Origin: Candidatus Cloacimonadota bacterium
GTDB taxonomy: Bacteria; Cloacimonadota; Cloacimonadia; JGIOTU-2; B8-G9
Assembly: GCA_003647765.1 (NCBI GenBank)
Contig: QMNM01000015.1
Coordinates: 1 to 11,757, forward strand
Length of the DNA: 11,757 bases
Direction: 5' to 3'
The position numbers and the translations under genes are program-made. Under the pieces are notes generated by a model that searched no databases, was not told the DNA's origin, and saw only the letters and a program-made list of their open reading frames with translations. The stretch's first letter is position 1; every line of letters starts with the position of its first letter. Shown piece after piece: positions 1 through 8,467 of this stretch.

Positions 1-861
1 ACAGATTTCATAATTGCGAAGTTGACTCTCTCTTTCTTTATATTCGTTTTCCTTGCTCTCTAATTTAGAAAGTTCACTTTTCTGTTTTTCAATCTTCTCA
101 AACAAGTTCTTAAGAGCATTGAGTTGCGTTTCTTTTTTTTGCTTTTCTGTAAGTTCACTAGAAATTTGCTTTATTTCGTTCTCCAAGTGTATAGATTTAC
201 TTTCTTCTTTTTTTATCATTTCATCAGTAATTTCACCTATTTGAGATAATTTCCCATTTATTTCCTGTATTTTTTCATCATTTAATTTTTTCAGCTTTGC
301 TACTCTGTCAGAAAATTCGTATTTTTCCAAATGGAATAATTCTCTCATCATTCGTGTTCTATCCGTATTTGTAAGTTGTAAGAATTCCTGAAACTGCCCT
401 TGTGGAATAATGATTGTTCTTCTGAAATTATCATAGCTCAGCCCAATAATTTGTTCTGCATTAGTGGTTTCCAATGGAACCCATTTGCCATTTTCTTTAC
501 GATATGCCTTACGGACAAAACTACGGATCTTCTCAAAATGTCGTTTATTTCGTTTGCCATTTACAACAAAGCAATACTCGTATTCCTCGTCGTTTCCTGG
601 TTTTCTTGCTTTAAATATGAATTCAATCAGCAGTTCATTTGATCTTAGGTTCATCATATTATAGTTGCGATTATCCTGCTTATTTAATCGTTCAGTTTGT
701 CCGTATAAAGCGAATGAAATTGCCTCAATAATAGTAGATTTTCCACTGCCAACAGGCCCAAAAATGCCAAAAAGATTAGTACTTGTCAGCTGGGTAAAAT
801 CAATTTTCTGCTCTGTTTGATATGAATATATGCCATTCAAACTTAAACTAATCGGTATCAT
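1..861 (-). CDS. sbcC: Exonuclease SbcC, N-terminal part (truncated by window edge)
   Basis: Large subunit of the SbcCD (Rad50-Mre11-like) nuclease, an SMC-type ATPase that binds DNA ends and hairpins and drives cleavage by SbcD. All 287 codons from ATG at 861 to base 1 are open. Visible parts: an N-terminal strand (IPISLSLNGIYSY), Walker A GPVGSGKST at residues 35-43, a Q-loop region IIIPQGQFQEFLQ around residues 150-162 (Q154), then from about residue 183 a Lys/Glu-rich heptad-like stretch that is the start of the long coiled coil. The Zn-hook, second coiled-coil arm and Walker B half lie outside the window. The start at 861 matches the usual SbcC N-terminus and has GGAG five bases upstream. 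The frame stays open upstream to 1029 through an unrelated FN3-like fragment. Partner sbcD lies 217 bp upstream on the same strand, an unusually wide gap for this pair. Confidence 0.95.
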   Translation of the reverse strand, partial: MIPISLSLNGIYSYQTEQKIDFTQLTSTNLFGIFGPVGSGKSTIIEAISFALYGQTERLNKQDNRNYNMMNLRSNELLIEFIFKARKPGNDEEYEYCFVVNGKRNKRHFEKIRSFVRKAYRKENGKWVPLETTNAEQIIGLSYDNFRRTIIIPQGQFQEFLQLTNTDRTRMMRELFHLEKYEFSDRVAKLKKLNDEKIQEINGKLSQIGEITDEMIKKEESKSIHLENEIKQISSELTEKQKKETQLNALKNLFEKIEKQKSELSKLESKENEYKERESQLRNYEIC

Positions 862-1029
862 TGATTCTCCATAAGGATTTGATGATTTATATACTACATA
901 ATAATCAACAGTAATTGACATTCCATAAATTGTAGTATCTACTGCTGCCCAATTTAAAATCACATCGTCATATAAAATAGTAATTTGAACTTTTGTTGGT
1001 GCGGCTGGCTGTACAGATTCACCTATTCC
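862..1029 (-). pseudogene. Decayed fibronectin type III (FN3) C-terminal domain fragment, in frame with sbcC
   Basis: Read in the sbcC frame, the 56 codons between a TAA at 1030-1032 and the sbcC ATG encode an FN3-like segment. It has a proline-rich linker and A strand (QPAAPTKVQITILYDDV), the conserved Trp of strand B (ILNWAAVDTTIYG) and a C-strand region with alternating Tyr/Val (TVDYYVVYKSSNPYGE). This is the first half of an FN3 domain; the second half is missing because sbcC begins directly after NPYGES. From memory, domains of this type (TTIYG-xPITVDYYLVYxSSNPYG) end many secreted Cloacimonadota proteins. No plausible start precedes it: the only in-frame ATG is at 921, inside the domain and without a good ribosome site. 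I read it as debris of a larger gene or of a recombined domain, not a translated gene. A 20-residue SbcC extension starting at 921 is a less likely alternative. Confidence 0.6.
867..870 (-). promoter_or_regulatory. Ribosome-binding site of sbcC
   Basis: GGAG lies five bases upstream of the sbcC ATG at 861. It decides for 861 over the in-frame ATG at 921, which has no comparable site. The same bases encode the Gly-Glu of the FN3-like NPYGE segment, so the site appears to be part of the inserted or retained FN3 sequence. Confidence 0.6.
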
Positions 1030-1041
1030 TTAAATTGATAG

Positions 1042-1063
1042 AACACGGATTACACGAATGACA
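1042..1063. repeat. Short dispersed-repeat-like sequence in the sbcD-sbcC gap
   Basis: The plus strand reads AACACGGATTACACGAATG and onward, with the internal near-repeat CACGGATTA/CACGAATGA. From memory, sequences of the type 'TTCGTGTAATCCGTGTT' recur in intergenic regions of many environmental bacterial genomes. There is only one copy in this window, so repeat status rests on that recollection. Confidence 0.3.
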
Positions 1064-1078
1064 TAAATATACAGGTGT

Positions 1079-2293
1079 TTACATTGATAAAATCTCGCGA
1101 TATAAATTGATAATATTTTTGTTTGGATTGTGTCCATTTTTATATTTGAAATAATCAATGAATAATTCCTCCATACTTTTTGTTAAATCAATTTTTCGGA
1201 GCTTCTCAGATATATAATCTTCTTTATTTTTAAGTTCAGGAATAATTGCTACAATGCCATTATGAACAGTATGTAATTGTCTTTGTTCTTCGGAAGTTGG
1301 ATAAGTATCTGTTGCCAAAGTAATTTCTACAAGAGTATTTTGATTTTCTTTTAGCCATTCAACTGCTTCTGGAATATTATAGAAAGTTTTTCTTTTTAGC
1401 ATTTTGCCTTTTTTTAGTGGGATAGAATCATAACTAATTGGCTTTCCTTTTGTTGCATCAATGATAATGACATATTTTTCTTGATTTGCTTCACTCATAC
1501 TATAAGCTATTGGACTTCCGCAGTAAATGATTGGGCAAGGATGCGATGAAATCATTTGTTTTCTATGAAGATGCCCCATTGCTACATATTGGATATTATA
1601 AGGTATATTTTCAGTATAAATTACTTGTGCTCCACCTATTTGAAGAATGGGCTTTTCATCTTCTGGTTCTTCTGGCGGCTTTTCCCCCTTTTTCATAATG
1701 AATAGATGAGCAATTAAAAGATTTACTCCATTCTCATCACAATATTTTTCACTTAATTGATTCCATCTTTGCTGTAAAATCTTTCTGAGCTCTTCCTCTG
1801 GATTTTCACAGCCCAAAAATTTTTTAAGTCGTACTTCATTTGCATAAGGTGTAATTAACAAACGTGCAGGAGTATCTATTCCATTTAATCTCATCTCTAT
1901 AAACCCTGGTTCAGATTTTGTGATTGCCAATCCTGTATAAAGGGAAAAAGGAATAGATGTAGAGTTTGGAGAGCCAAATAAAAATATTCCACATTCACGA
2001 GCTAAAGGGTCAGACACTTCTATTCCATTTGGAGAATCGTGGTTTCCAGCAATTGCAATTACTGCTCGTTCACCATTTTTTGCCAATGTCTTAACAGTTT
2101 TGTAAAATAATTCATTAGCCTCAACTGATGGATTAAAATTATCAAATAAGTCCCCTGAAATAATTACTAAATTGACATGCTCAATATCTGCAATATCACA
2201 AATTTCATTTAGAACATCTCTCTGCTCATCTAATCTGGAAAGACCTGAAAGACGCTTTCCAAGATGCCAATCCGAAGTATGTAAAATTTTCAT
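1079..2293 (-). CDS. sbcD: Exonuclease subunit SbcD (Mre11-like)
   Basis: Metallophosphoesterase subunit of SbcCD, a Mn-dependent nuclease that cuts DNA ends and hairpins; it works in the cytoplasm with SbcC. All metal-binding motifs of the family are present in order: DWHLG (D8, H10), GDLFD (D48), GNHDS (N84, H85, D86), H196 in LLIAHLF, and GHLH (H241, H243). The C-terminal part (about 290-404) is the SbcC-interacting and capping region and ends in a helix (SMEELFIDYF). At 404 residues it is a normal length for SbcD. ATG at 2293 starts the expected MKILHTSDWH. Its ribosome site is weak (AGAG), and it begins 12 bp after the ahcY stop, so it is probably translated from the same transcript. sbcC follows in the same direction. 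Confidence 0.97.
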   Translation of the reverse strand: MKILHTSDWHLGKRLSGLSRLDEQRDVLNEICDIADIEHVNLVIISGDLFDNFNPSVEANELFYKTVKTLAKNGERAVIAIAGNHDSPNGIEVSDPLARECGIFLFGSPNSTSIPFSLYTGLAITKSEPGFIEMRLNGIDTPARLLITPYANEVRLKKFLGCENPEEELRKILQQRWNQLSEKYCDENGVNLLIAHLFIMKKGEKPPEEPEDEKPILQIGGAQVIYTENIPYNIQYVAMGHLHRKQMISSHPCPIIYCGSPIAYSMSEANQEKYVIIIDATKGKPISYDSIPLKKGKMLKRKTFYNIPEAVEWLKENQNTLVEITLATDTYPTSEEQRQLHTVHNGIVAIIPELKNKEDYISEKLRKIDLTKSMEELFIDYFKYKNGHNPNKNIINLYREILSM

Positions 2294-2305: not shown

Positions 2306-3565
2306 TTATGTTCCAAAAGACCAAGATGCCAAATATTTCTTCTGTTCTTCTGTCAACTGGTCAATTTGTATATTCATAGAGTTCAATTTTAATTTAGCAA
2401 TATATTCGTCAATATGCTTTGGCACAGGCATTACATCAACTGGTAATCGTTCACCTTTTCTATATGTTTTTGTGAAATATTCTGCTGTAAGTGCTTGATT
2501 AGCAAAGCTCATATCCATAACAGCAGCTGGATGTCCATTTGCAGCTGCAAGATTTATCAAGCGTCCCTCAGCTAATACATATATCCTTTTATCATCTAAT
2601 TTATACTCATCAACAAATTTTCTAACCCTCTGCCTTGACTTAGCAATTTTATTCAATGCGGTCAAATTTATTTCAACATCAAAATGTCCAGAATTACATA
2701 TAATTGCACCATCTTTCATTTTTTCTATATGAGGAATGTCAATAACATTTATATCCCCAGTAATAGTTATAAATAAATCGCCATAGAGTGCCGCATCTAT
2801 CATTTTCATCACACGAAATCCATCCATAGCAGCTTCAGTTGCTTTAAGATGGTCTACTTCCGTAATAATCACATTTGCACCCATACCTTTTGCACGCATT
2901 GCTACACCTCTTCCACACCAACCATAACCAGCAATAACTACTGTTGAACCAGCCAGTAAAATATCAGTTGCTCTAATTATTCCATCTATTGTGCTTTGTC
3001 CAGTGCCATAACGATTATCAAAAAAGTGCTTTGTTTTAGCATCATTTACAGCAATTATCGGATATTTAAGAGAATTATCTGCTAACATACTACGCAACCG
3101 AATTACACCAGTAGTGGTCTCTTCGCTGCCACCAATGACATTATTGCACTTTTCAGGATATTTAGAGTGAATTGTAGAGACCAAATCACAGCCATCGTCT
3201 TGTGTAATATGAGGATTAAACTCTAAAACACTATCAATATGCTTATAATATGTTTCGTTGTCTTCTCCATTTATTGAATATACATCCAAACCGTAATATT
3301 TGACTAATGCGGCTGCGACATCATCCTGAGTAGAGAGTGGATTAGAAGCACATAATTTAATTTGTGAGCCACCTGCTTTTAGTGTTCTCATCAAAATAGC
3401 AGTCTCTGTTGTAATATGCAGACAACTTGCAATTCTGATGTCTTGCAGAGGTTTCTCCTTCTCAAATCTATCCCGTATTATTCTTAATACTGGCATATTT
3501 TTTTCAACCCAGTTTATTCGTTCAAGACCTTGTTCTGCTAAATTGATGTCTTTTATATCTGGCAT
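2306..3565 (-). CDS. ahcY: S-adenosylhomocysteine hydrolase, short archaeal/Thermotoga-like form
   Basis: Cytoplasmic NAD-dependent enzyme that splits S-adenosylhomocysteine into homocysteine and adenosine, removing the inhibitor left by methyltransferases. Visible: the substrate motif [10 protein letters not shown] (48-56), GGSEETTTG (145-153), the catalytic stretch [14 protein letters not shown] with K179 and D183, the NAD-binding loop GYGWCGRG (213-220), SGHFDVEI (292-299) and [13 protein letters not shown] (334-346). At 419 residues it is shorter than the roughly 430-470-residue bacterial/eukaryotic forms. It ends in [11 protein letters not shown] instead of the Lys...Tyr tail (DHYRY type) that reaches into the partner subunit's NAD site. 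That tail is typical of archaeal and Thermotoga enzymes, at least one of which (Methanocaldococcus) prefers S-inosylhomocysteine. AGGAG lies six bases before ATG 3565. The gene is 12 bp from sbcD and probably co-transcribed with it. Confidence 0.96.
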
Positions 3566-5146: not shown

Positions 5147-8100
5147 TCATTTATGCCTAAAATAGAATTGTATGGAAAAATATGTCAATAAATTGATGAA
5201 CAATCCATAGATAATGATAATTAACACGTTCACATTATAAGTATTAGTAATCAATCCACAATATATTTTTTTACTACTCAAAAAGAAATTTTTCCGATTA
5301 TTATAAAATTTCCCATCCATTGTAGCGACTGCTATGTTAATAGATTCATTTATATACTTATTAGCATCAAATCTTTGTAATAATTTTGTTTTTTCTTGAT
5401 AAATGTGTTTTCTCTTTTGATTAAATTCTATATCATTGATTTTATGTTCCTTCCTTAAATTCTGTAGTTTTTTCTCAGCTAAATTCAATTTCGTGATCCT
5501 TCTCTTGTAACTATTCAATTTTGCCTGTGCAGTGAATAATCCTTCAAACAACCAACGAGAAGGTATAATTTGACAGAATTCAGGTATAACATTCTCTGGA
5601 TTTATTTTGAAAGTACGGTTCATTTTTTCAAACTCAATAACAGCACCAGCAAATATCATCTGCGGTATCATTAGTAAAGGAAGTATGTTTACTATTGCAT
5701 TTTTATCTTTCAAAATTGAAGACGCTAATAATCCTATAGAATATCCTATAAACGCAGACAAAAGCAAATATCCAATATAAACGAAATATATCCCTCTAAT
5801 TTGTAAAATTATACTGGAAATGAAAAAATACAATATGCTTTGGATGAGAGCAAAAATAGATAATGTAATGTTCTTCACTAATAAAAAATAACCTGGTTTA
5901 ATATTTAATTTCTGCTCTCTTAATAAAATTCTCTTCTCAGAGATTATTTCGTCTAAACTGTTTGATAATCCCAAAAAGATGAAAACAATAACTGAGATGA
6001 AAATGAATATTTTCATATTAACATTTGCGGCAAAACTATAGCTGACATCCTGTTCTGAATATTTTAATATAAATGAAATCAAAAGTGCTAAAATCGGAGA
6101 TGCAAGAAATGTAACATAAAGATTTGTCCTATTTTTCAACTTATTTTTTAAATTTCTAATAAAAAGATAATATATCTGATAAATATTCTCTTTAATACTT
6201 AATCTCGTATGAGAGAAGTCAAATTGTTTCCTTTCCTCTTTTTTTGCCTGTTCATTAGCTTGTTTAGAGATAATTTGTAGTAATTGATACTTCTTAAATT
6301 TTGTTTTCCAATATTCAGGCGGATATTTTCGTTGTTCCTCATTAACACCAGAATCAGGCTTATCCTTTTTATATATGAGATTACCCGAACTATCCAGCAA
6401 AGGATATTGTAAAATATCAAACAGATATTCAGCCATTCTTAACTCTTTTTTTCTCAATAAATTAGGCATCCCATAAATAAGCTCTTTAAGCTCATCATCA
6501 AAATAATCAAATACTTCCTCAGTATTACCGAAGAATACCTGTGTGCCATTTTTATCAATAAGTAGAATTTTATCAAATTGCTGGAAAATGTCAGGATTAG
6601 GCTGATGTATAGACGCAATGATTATTTTCCCTTGTTCTTTCAAGTCAGTAAGCATCTCAATAATTCTTTCAGAATCCTTAGAAGATAATCCTGATGTTGG
6701 CTCATCTAAAATTATAATTATAGGGTCAGAAAGGAGCTCCAAAGCAATATTCAATCTCTTGCGCTCACCTCCACTTAATTTCTTATCCATAACATTGCCT
6801 ACAATTAAATTTCTCTTCTCATATAAACCAATCTGTACTAATATATTATCTATTCTCTTTTTAATAACATCAGTATTTTTTATTTGTGGTAGACGCAATC
6901 TCCCACAATAATAAAGATTTTCATAAACAGTCAGATTATTGAATAGTAAATCATCTTGTGGCACATAGCCGAAATACTTTTGGAAATATGAGAAATTCTC
7001 ATATAAATCATAGTCATCTATTTCAATTCCACCTTGATTAGCAATAACTTCTCCGATAAGACACCTTAGTAAAGTAGTTTTTCCACTGCCACTTGCTCCC
7101 ATTATAGCTAGCAATTCACCTTTATTCACATTAAAATTGATTTCATCAAGAGCAATAGAATGTTCTTGCTTTCTACCAAAAGAGGAGTCATTTGGAAACA
7201 CATAATGAAGATTGTTAACACTAAGTCGTGAAATCTCATAATCAATTTTAACAATATCAAAAAATTTGTTGATTTTAAAATTCGTTTGCTTAATAGAGAT
7301 AATATCCTTATTAATTACAAAATCTTCTTGTCCTGCCAAAATATGATGATTGAGAAAAATAGGAATGTCTTTATCCAAAGGAGTAATACTAGCATTATTC
7401 TGATGTCGTGTAATTTTAGCTACAGAATGTCCAGTCCTCTTATCACTTATACGAAAAAAATTTTCAGAAGAGTCAATATATAGTGTCTCAAATGCTCGCT
7501 CTTCTTCACGGAATAGCAGTTTCTCTGTTAATATATCAAGAGGCGAAAATTCCAAAACATTATTGATTACTATAAAATCATTAATTGCTAACTCGTATCT
7601 GCTATCATAACTTAATGCATTTCCATTAACAGTAATATTGCCTTTATTTACCTGTATTTTTATATAATTATTCTCTTGCAAAATGTCTAAGTCAAAACTC
7701 TTTTTGGCATATTTAATTACTTTTGTGATGTTATTTTTTTTATTAGCATACAGCTTTACTATTTCGTCATAACTAAGTTGTAATCCCATTCTATCTGATG
7801 GCTCTGACAAATTCAGCATTTCATCTTTGCTTAATTTATACAATCTGTCCGTGTCTAATACATAACTACCAATACGATACCTTTTATCTATAAAACTGCC
7901 AATCAAAATAACATCTTCTATAATAAGAATAATTAGAATATAATCAGTAGAGATTTTTTCTTTAAATTTTACATCACAAGATTGCTTTTCACCAAAAACA
8001 AGAAAATTAGTGAACATTGATTGTCCCAAATGCTCACTGAATTCCTGTAATGATATATCCAAAAATTTTGACTCGCCTTCTATAATTTCAACAAGCTGAT

Positions 8101-8467
8101 CATAAAGATTGATATCAACCTGCAACATTTCAACTACTTCCAAAATATCAAGTCTGTCAACCACTGAAAAGCTTTCATTTATATGAGCAATAACTAACAA
8201 GTTCATTAACAGTTTTATTTTGTCAGGATAGTACAGGTAATTTTTAATAATATTTACAGCTTGTTTTAATGGATATGGATTTTCTATAAGTTTTTGTATC
8301 TGTTGAAGACGAATTTCTTTTTCACTGAATGTTGACTTAATAATATTATATACAATATTGACTTCTCGTTTGCCAATTTTTTGTGTATTAAATCTGATAA
8401 GATTGAGATAAAGAGCCACAACAGCATTGATAATATTGTCTATATCTTTTCTTGCCTCTTTTCGCAT
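5147..8467 (-). CDS. ABCG-type ABC transporter with TerB-like and FHA-like N-terminal regions
   Basis: An 1106-residue membrane ATPase with ABCG order (ATPase before membrane domain). Residues 1-135 are all-helical and TerB-like (NAVVALYLNLIRFN, then a helix pair ending YDQLVEIIEG). Residues about 135-410 are mainly beta, with an FHA-like piece (ITVNGNAL...YELAINDFIVINN, 278-303) and a possible second one near 360-395. The ATPase (415-650) is complete: Walker A GASGSGKTT 457-465, Q504, signature LSGGERKR 564-571, Walker B IIIILDEP with E589, H621. Six membrane segments follow at about 784-802, 819-835, 863-888, 893-917, 924-945 and 1079-1101. A charged helical insert of about 130 residues lies between segments five and six, presumably periplasmic. 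Substrate unknown; export or lipid handling is a guess. ATG 8467 has a modest GGAA nine bases upstream. The gene starts 32 bp after queC. Confidence 0.93.
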   Translation of the reverse strand: MRKEARKDIDNIINAVVALYLNLIRFNTQKIGKREVNIVYNIIKSTFSEKEIRLQQIQKLIENPYPLKQAVNIIKNYLYYPDKIKLLMNLLVIAHINESFSVVDRLDILEVVEMLQVDINLYDQLVEIIEGESKFLDISLQEFSEHLGQSMFTNFLVFGEKQSCDVKFKEKISTDYILIILIIEDVILIGSFIDKRYRIGSYVLDTDRLYKLSKDEMLNLSEPSDRMGLQLSYDEIVKLYANKKNNITKVIKYAKKSFDLDILQENNYIKIQVNKGNITVNGNALSYDSRYELAINDFIVINNVLEFSPLDILTEKLLFREEERAFETLYIDSSENFFRISDKRTGHSVAKITRHQNNASITPLDKDIPIFLNHHILAGQEDFVINKDIISIKQTNFKINKFFDIVKIDYEISRLSVNNLHYVFPNDSSFGRKQEHSIALDEINFNVNKGELLAIMGASGSGKTTLLRCLIGEVIANQGGIEIDDYDLYENFSYFQKYFGYVPQDDLLFNNLTVYENLYYCGRLRLPQIKNTDVIKKRIDNILVQIGLYEKRNLIVGNVMDKKLSGGERKRLNIALELLSDPIIIILDEPTSGLSSKDSERIIEMLTDLKEQGKIIIASIHQPNPDIFQQFDKILLIDKNGTQVFFGNTEEVFDYFDDELKELIYGMPNLLRKKELRMAEYLFDILQYPLLDSSGNLIYKKDKPDSGVNEEQRKYPPEYWKTKFKKYQLLQIISKQANEQAKKEERKQFDFSHTRLSIKENIYQIYYLFIRNLKNKLKNRTNLYVTFLASPILALLISFILKYSEQDVSYSFAANVNMKIFIFISVIVFIFLGLSNSLDEIISEKRILLREQKLNIKPGYFLLVKNITLSIFALIQSILYFFISSIILQIRGIYFVYIGYLLLSAFIGYSIGLLASSILKDKNAIVNILPLLMIPQMIFAGAVIEFEKMNRTFKINPENVIPEFCQIIPSRWLFEGLFTAQAKLNSYKRRITKLNLAEKKLQNLRKEHKINDIEFNQKRKHIYQEKTKLLQRFDANKYINESINIAVATMDGKFYNNRKNFFLSSKKIYCGLITNTYNVNVLIIIIYGLFINLLTYFSIQFYFRHK

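Follow-up and report, generated by a model that had tools for sequence, protein, structure and literature searches.

A half FN3 domain and the end of a dispersed repeat between sbcD and sbcC of a Candidatus Cloacimonadota bacterium: a likely insertion scar in a probably transferred operon

Results

In the window, by which we mean the whole stretch of 11,757 nucleotides analysed here, sbcD and sbcC are separated by 217 bp (862-1078, minus strand) that hold the first half of an FN3 domain and the end of a dispersed extragenic repeat. We consider it likely that about 210 bp made of these two pieces was inserted illegitimately into the tail of a transferred sbcDC operon whose genes were joined by an ATGA overlap, that the GGAG ahead of sbcC belongs to the old sbcD tail, and that the insert has no function. 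An earlier note on this DNA had already described the gap, the FN3 piece and the frame that stays open into sbcC, all of which we recovered; it overlooked the repeat, and its account of how the pieces came together has to be changed. The features are listed in Table 1.

Table 1. Features of the sbcD-sbcC region in the window.
Feature	Position	Strand	Remarks
sbcC 5' part, 287 codons	1..861	-	ATG at 861-859; TIGR00618 E 1e-39
ATG GAG AAT CAA TGA (MENQ*)	858..872	-	probable leftover sbcD tail, overlapping the sbcC ATG as ATGA; assignment inferred
FN3-domain fragment with end of preceding domain (GIGE)	865..1029	-	in frame with sbcC; identified by homology and by an intact homologue's modelled fold
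GGAG, likely Shine-Dalgarno of sbcC	867..870	-	5 nt before ATG
End of dispersed extragenic repeat, AATTGATAGAACACGGATTACACGAATGACATAAATATA on the plus strand	about 1032..1073		similar intergenic copies on other contigs
sbcD	1079..2293	-	TIGR00619 170.8 bits, cut-off 77.65; early stop EILS-M*, TAA 1081-1079

Integrity and origin of the sbcDC genes

Both genes are recognised by their family profiles, SbcD above the cut-off and SbcC on its N-terminal part. The remainder of sbcC lies on another contig (C34), whose start overlaps that of the window exactly over 123 bp, and the frame there reads on to a normal SbcC C-terminus to give a full-length protein. The homologues start sbcC at a Met that matches the MIPISL start in the window. 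SbcD is complete except for a few tail residues, the homologues mostly running 2-5 codons longer. Both genes look undamaged by the insert; what the window lacks, with the two genes 217 bp apart, is the overlapping ATGA stop/start that is the hallmark of a translationally coupled pair. Downstream of sbcC, C34 also carries dispersed simple repeats of other kinds in short runs (L155:2395-2470 and 3005-3110; AGAAATCAGGAGACAGGAGTCAG, GCGTAGGGCGTAATGCGTAG and CACCACAGAGACACAAAGGACACAGA). Elsewhere in the window, an ORF of 1106 aa (5147-8467) has an ABC-transporter ATPase core and a membrane part, and the region preceding the core looks FHA-like.

The closest SbcC relatives in a search of 84,980 species genomes were mostly from Bacteroidota, and among 124 genomes of the phylum, in which the source genome was the sole member of its family, only the source genome gave an SbcC match at E 1e-25 or better. 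Gene order and protein families are shared with the Bacteroidota-type sbcDC operon (a Mre11-Rad50 type nuclease), with identities of 54% at best for SbcC and 50-60% for SbcD. The contig also encodes an MnmG with 65-68% identity to that of same-order genomes, a normal value for the order. This, together with the repeat that the contig has in common with others, rules out contamination, and sbcDC was therefore probably acquired horizontally from Bacteroidota-like donors.

The FN3 fragment

Read on the minus strand, 1029-865 translates as GIGESVQPAAPTKVQITILYDDVILNWAAVDTTIYGMSITVDYYVVYKSSNPYGE, which is 55 open codons beginning with GIGESVQPAAPTKV and ending with SSNPYGE. It is immediately preceded by an in-frame TAA, and no stop follows from there into sbcC; base shuffles of these 165 nt were free of stops in 0.7% of cases. 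A Pfam search, one of the checks that the earlier note had proposed, found no family at all in the fragment. Intact homologues also missed the PF00041 cut-off of 25 (best 13.8 bits), with weak fn3 or Ig-like scores, so that on the Pfam criterion alone the FN3 claim would fail.

The claim stands on homology and fold. In a tblastn search of the source genome and its nearest relatives, the fragment was matched in 58 of 98 genomes, with the best match in another genome at 60% identity over 47 aa (E 8e-13) and the source genome itself gave a match (36%, E 2e-5) in the C-terminal domain of a protein encoded on contig C112. Every listed match sits in an open frame of at least 134 aa, and those that were read out form domains within multidomain proteins. 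The AlphaFold model made for an intact homologue (pLDDT 96.6) had FN3 domains as its best PDB matches, and weak profile matches to FN3 chains in the PDB were also obtained. As judged by these alignments and the model, the membership of the fragment in the FN3-fold family is solid.

The alignment places GIGE at the end of a preceding domain (G.GEYVPP; weak Pfam hints, HYDIN/ASH type), and alignment and model together put the fragment end NPYG(E) near residue 49 of 83, just past the third strand. With three strands only, it is not a complete seven-strand FN3 domain; the piece as aligned and modelled is a remnant spanning a two-domain junction and the first FN3 half, and not a working domain. It shares motifs, and an alignment over 47-55 residues, with FN3 domains near the C-termini of secreted multidomain proteins of the same class; unlike these, the window has the first half only and has it outside any secreted-protein gene. 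The fragment is undecayed, its profile score being higher than that of 30 of 31 intact domains, although these had been collected using the fragment itself.

A profile search of the genome for other FN3 scraps recovered four more copies, each in a frame of at least 521 aa, and the source genome, which is 89% complete, yielded no donor copy of high DNA identity. The FN3 piece was also missing from 26 genomes with close sbcDC relatives, an empty answer that alone shows little but agrees with the piece having come from the host lineage. We found nothing directly relevant in the literature on FN3 in Cloacimonadota.

The dispersed repeat

The other part of the insert belongs to a repeat with the consensus AATTAATAGAACACGGATNACACTGATTACACTGATT, similar copies of which lie between genes on seven other contigs. 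A few bases at most separate its outer end from the first codon of the FN3 piece. The repeat unit is about 100 bases long with inward-facing similar ends (TAGAACACGGAT ... ATCNGTGTTCTAT), and the intergenic copies include L002:1490-1600, L113:1420-1545 and L115:1230-1345. An Rfam search matched neither the repeat nor the insert, no terminator was found in the insert, and promoter-like sites were no commoner there than in shuffles.

The junction in Bacteroidota-type relatives

In order to read the window against its relatives, we compared Bacteroidota-type loci in which both genes were readable. The ATGA overlap of sbcD and sbcC is present in 46 of 77 such loci and is their usual junction, in contrast to the 217-bp gap with foreign sequence in the window. 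The sbcD tail just before the overlap is rich in Glu codons, and an SD-like motif (GGAG, GAGG or AGGA within the 16 nt before the sbcC start) is found in 30 of the 46 overlapping loci against a background of 15%. After a conserved E-V/I-L-S/A the tails are mostly 2-5 residues long (LSEEDSQ*, LSEENEK*, LSEEPE*). In the window, sbcD reads ...REILS and then ATG TAA, stopping at the point that matches the relatives, and the sequence ahead of sbcC is GGAGAATCAATGA; here ATG GAG AAT CAA TGA gives MENQ* if translated as sbcD is in the relatives. Joining REILS to MENQ* gives REILSMENQ*, a tail of ordinary length with an ordinary ATGA overlap. The match of MENQ* to an sbcD tail is probable and covers few codons.

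Gaps of more than 400 bp occur at the sbcD-sbcC junction in nine Bacteroidota relatives, and seven of these contain a GxxExxY-type gene; the one that we tested matched TIGR04256 (E 4e-43). In L039, L040, L042, L048, L053, L075 and L107 the GxxExxY-type gene lies exactly between sbcD and sbcC. The junction thus tolerates inserts and looks like a recurrent insertion site in Bacteroidota. The same junction was used and the operon otherwise retained in the window, but the Bacteroidota inserts are a complete gene whereas that of the window is debris. The literature on GxxExxY insertions or the sbcDC overlap yielded nothing directly relevant.

The ribosome-binding site of sbcC

SD motifs are present at 10 of 21 gene starts in the source genome (background 6%); because the genome uses such motifs, GGAG can credibly serve as an SD wherever it came from. 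As for its origin, the earlier note had taken it to be made of the Gly-Glu codons of the domain, and had suggested that debris was adopted as a translation signal. The FN3 frame does include GGA GAA, but the bases are not assignable to one source, and they sit where homologues have a Glu-rich sbcD tail with GGAG- or GAGG-like sequence, which argues against adoption. Some FN3 homologues also have Gly-Glu at the junction position (SSSPHGEF), and since this amounts to a few bases of microhomology, both origins are possible. The comparison of tails suggests that derivation from the old sbcD tail is the more likely of the two. Among experimentally tested overlapping gene pairs 13 of 14 were coupled, and SD motifs are rarely used in Bacteroidetes (PMC6728339), so that the SD-like bases in Bacteroidota sbcD tails may simply be Glu codons. 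The insertion would have broken the coupling of sbcC to sbcD, so that sbcC would have come to need initiation of its own.

Discussion

The reading that we favour would begin with a horizontally acquired Bacteroidota-type sbcDC operon whose genes were joined by the ATGA overlap. About 210 bp, comprising a dispersed repeat end and half of an FN3 domain that came from a gene for a secreted protein in the host lineage, would have entered the last sbcD codons by illegitimate recombination, with nothing or few bases lost. As a result sbcD would end a few codons early and sbcC would be shifted 217 bp away. The sbcC start would have stayed in place, as most likely would the last part of the old sbcD tail with its GGAG; sbcC would now probably be initiated independently from GGAG. 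The fragment is most likely functionless, its open frame reflecting youth or chance. The repeat and the FN3 piece could have arrived in two events, and a larger insertion later shrunk by deletion is possible. The recombination between dispersed FN3 modules proposed in the earlier note would leave the joint unaccounted for, since there is no FN3 module in sbcD or in sbcC to pair with and the junctions lie in the sbcD tail. We also considered a target-site duplication, ATCAATG being present at both ends (1088-1082 and 865-859), and rejected it as the main model: removing one copy leaves an in-frame sbcD-sbcC fusion without a stop, and a comparable match arises in 6.7% of flank shuffles.

It is unlikely, though it deserves weighing, that the old sbcD tail was lost and the Gly-Glu codons of the FN3 piece (GGA GAA) became the SD of sbcC. 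Intact FN3 homologues sometimes have PHGEF or PDGEF at this position and the codons fall within the FN3 frame; however, Gly-Glu is followed by Ser, at a position that is aromatic in the domain, and when translated in the frame that sbcD has in the relatives the same bases give a normal Glu-containing tail with an ATGA overlap. The insert might also have been kept as a host-derived 5' leader from which SbcC is made independently of SbcD, an overlap-coupled operon being re-set in an SD-using host, and we give this idea little credence.

Translation of the segment as an N-terminal extension of SbcC, or its retention for some other function, appears very improbable. The frame is open into sbcC and the fragment is undecayed, but the SbcC homologues, all from outside the family, begin at the internal Met, an FN3 domain cut in half would not be expected to fold, and the internal GTG and ATG codons of the fragment have no SD-like motif; the earlier note was right in treating the segment as foreign to sbcDC and not as a conserved extension. 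We likewise hardly believe in an assembly chimera in which the insert was wrongly joined at the dispersed repeat. The assembly is a draft in 360 contigs and one junction does have a repeat, but two false joins would be required, both at one point in the sbcD tail and neither costing any of it, and the 123-bp exact contig overlap suggests long k-mers.

The insertion scar is probably neutral, evolutionary debris rather than a new system. Its value is as a clear single case in which an overlap-coupled, transferred operon would have been split by host debris without breaking either gene. It also carries a warning, that a ribosome-binding site which seems to be part of the debris may predate it.
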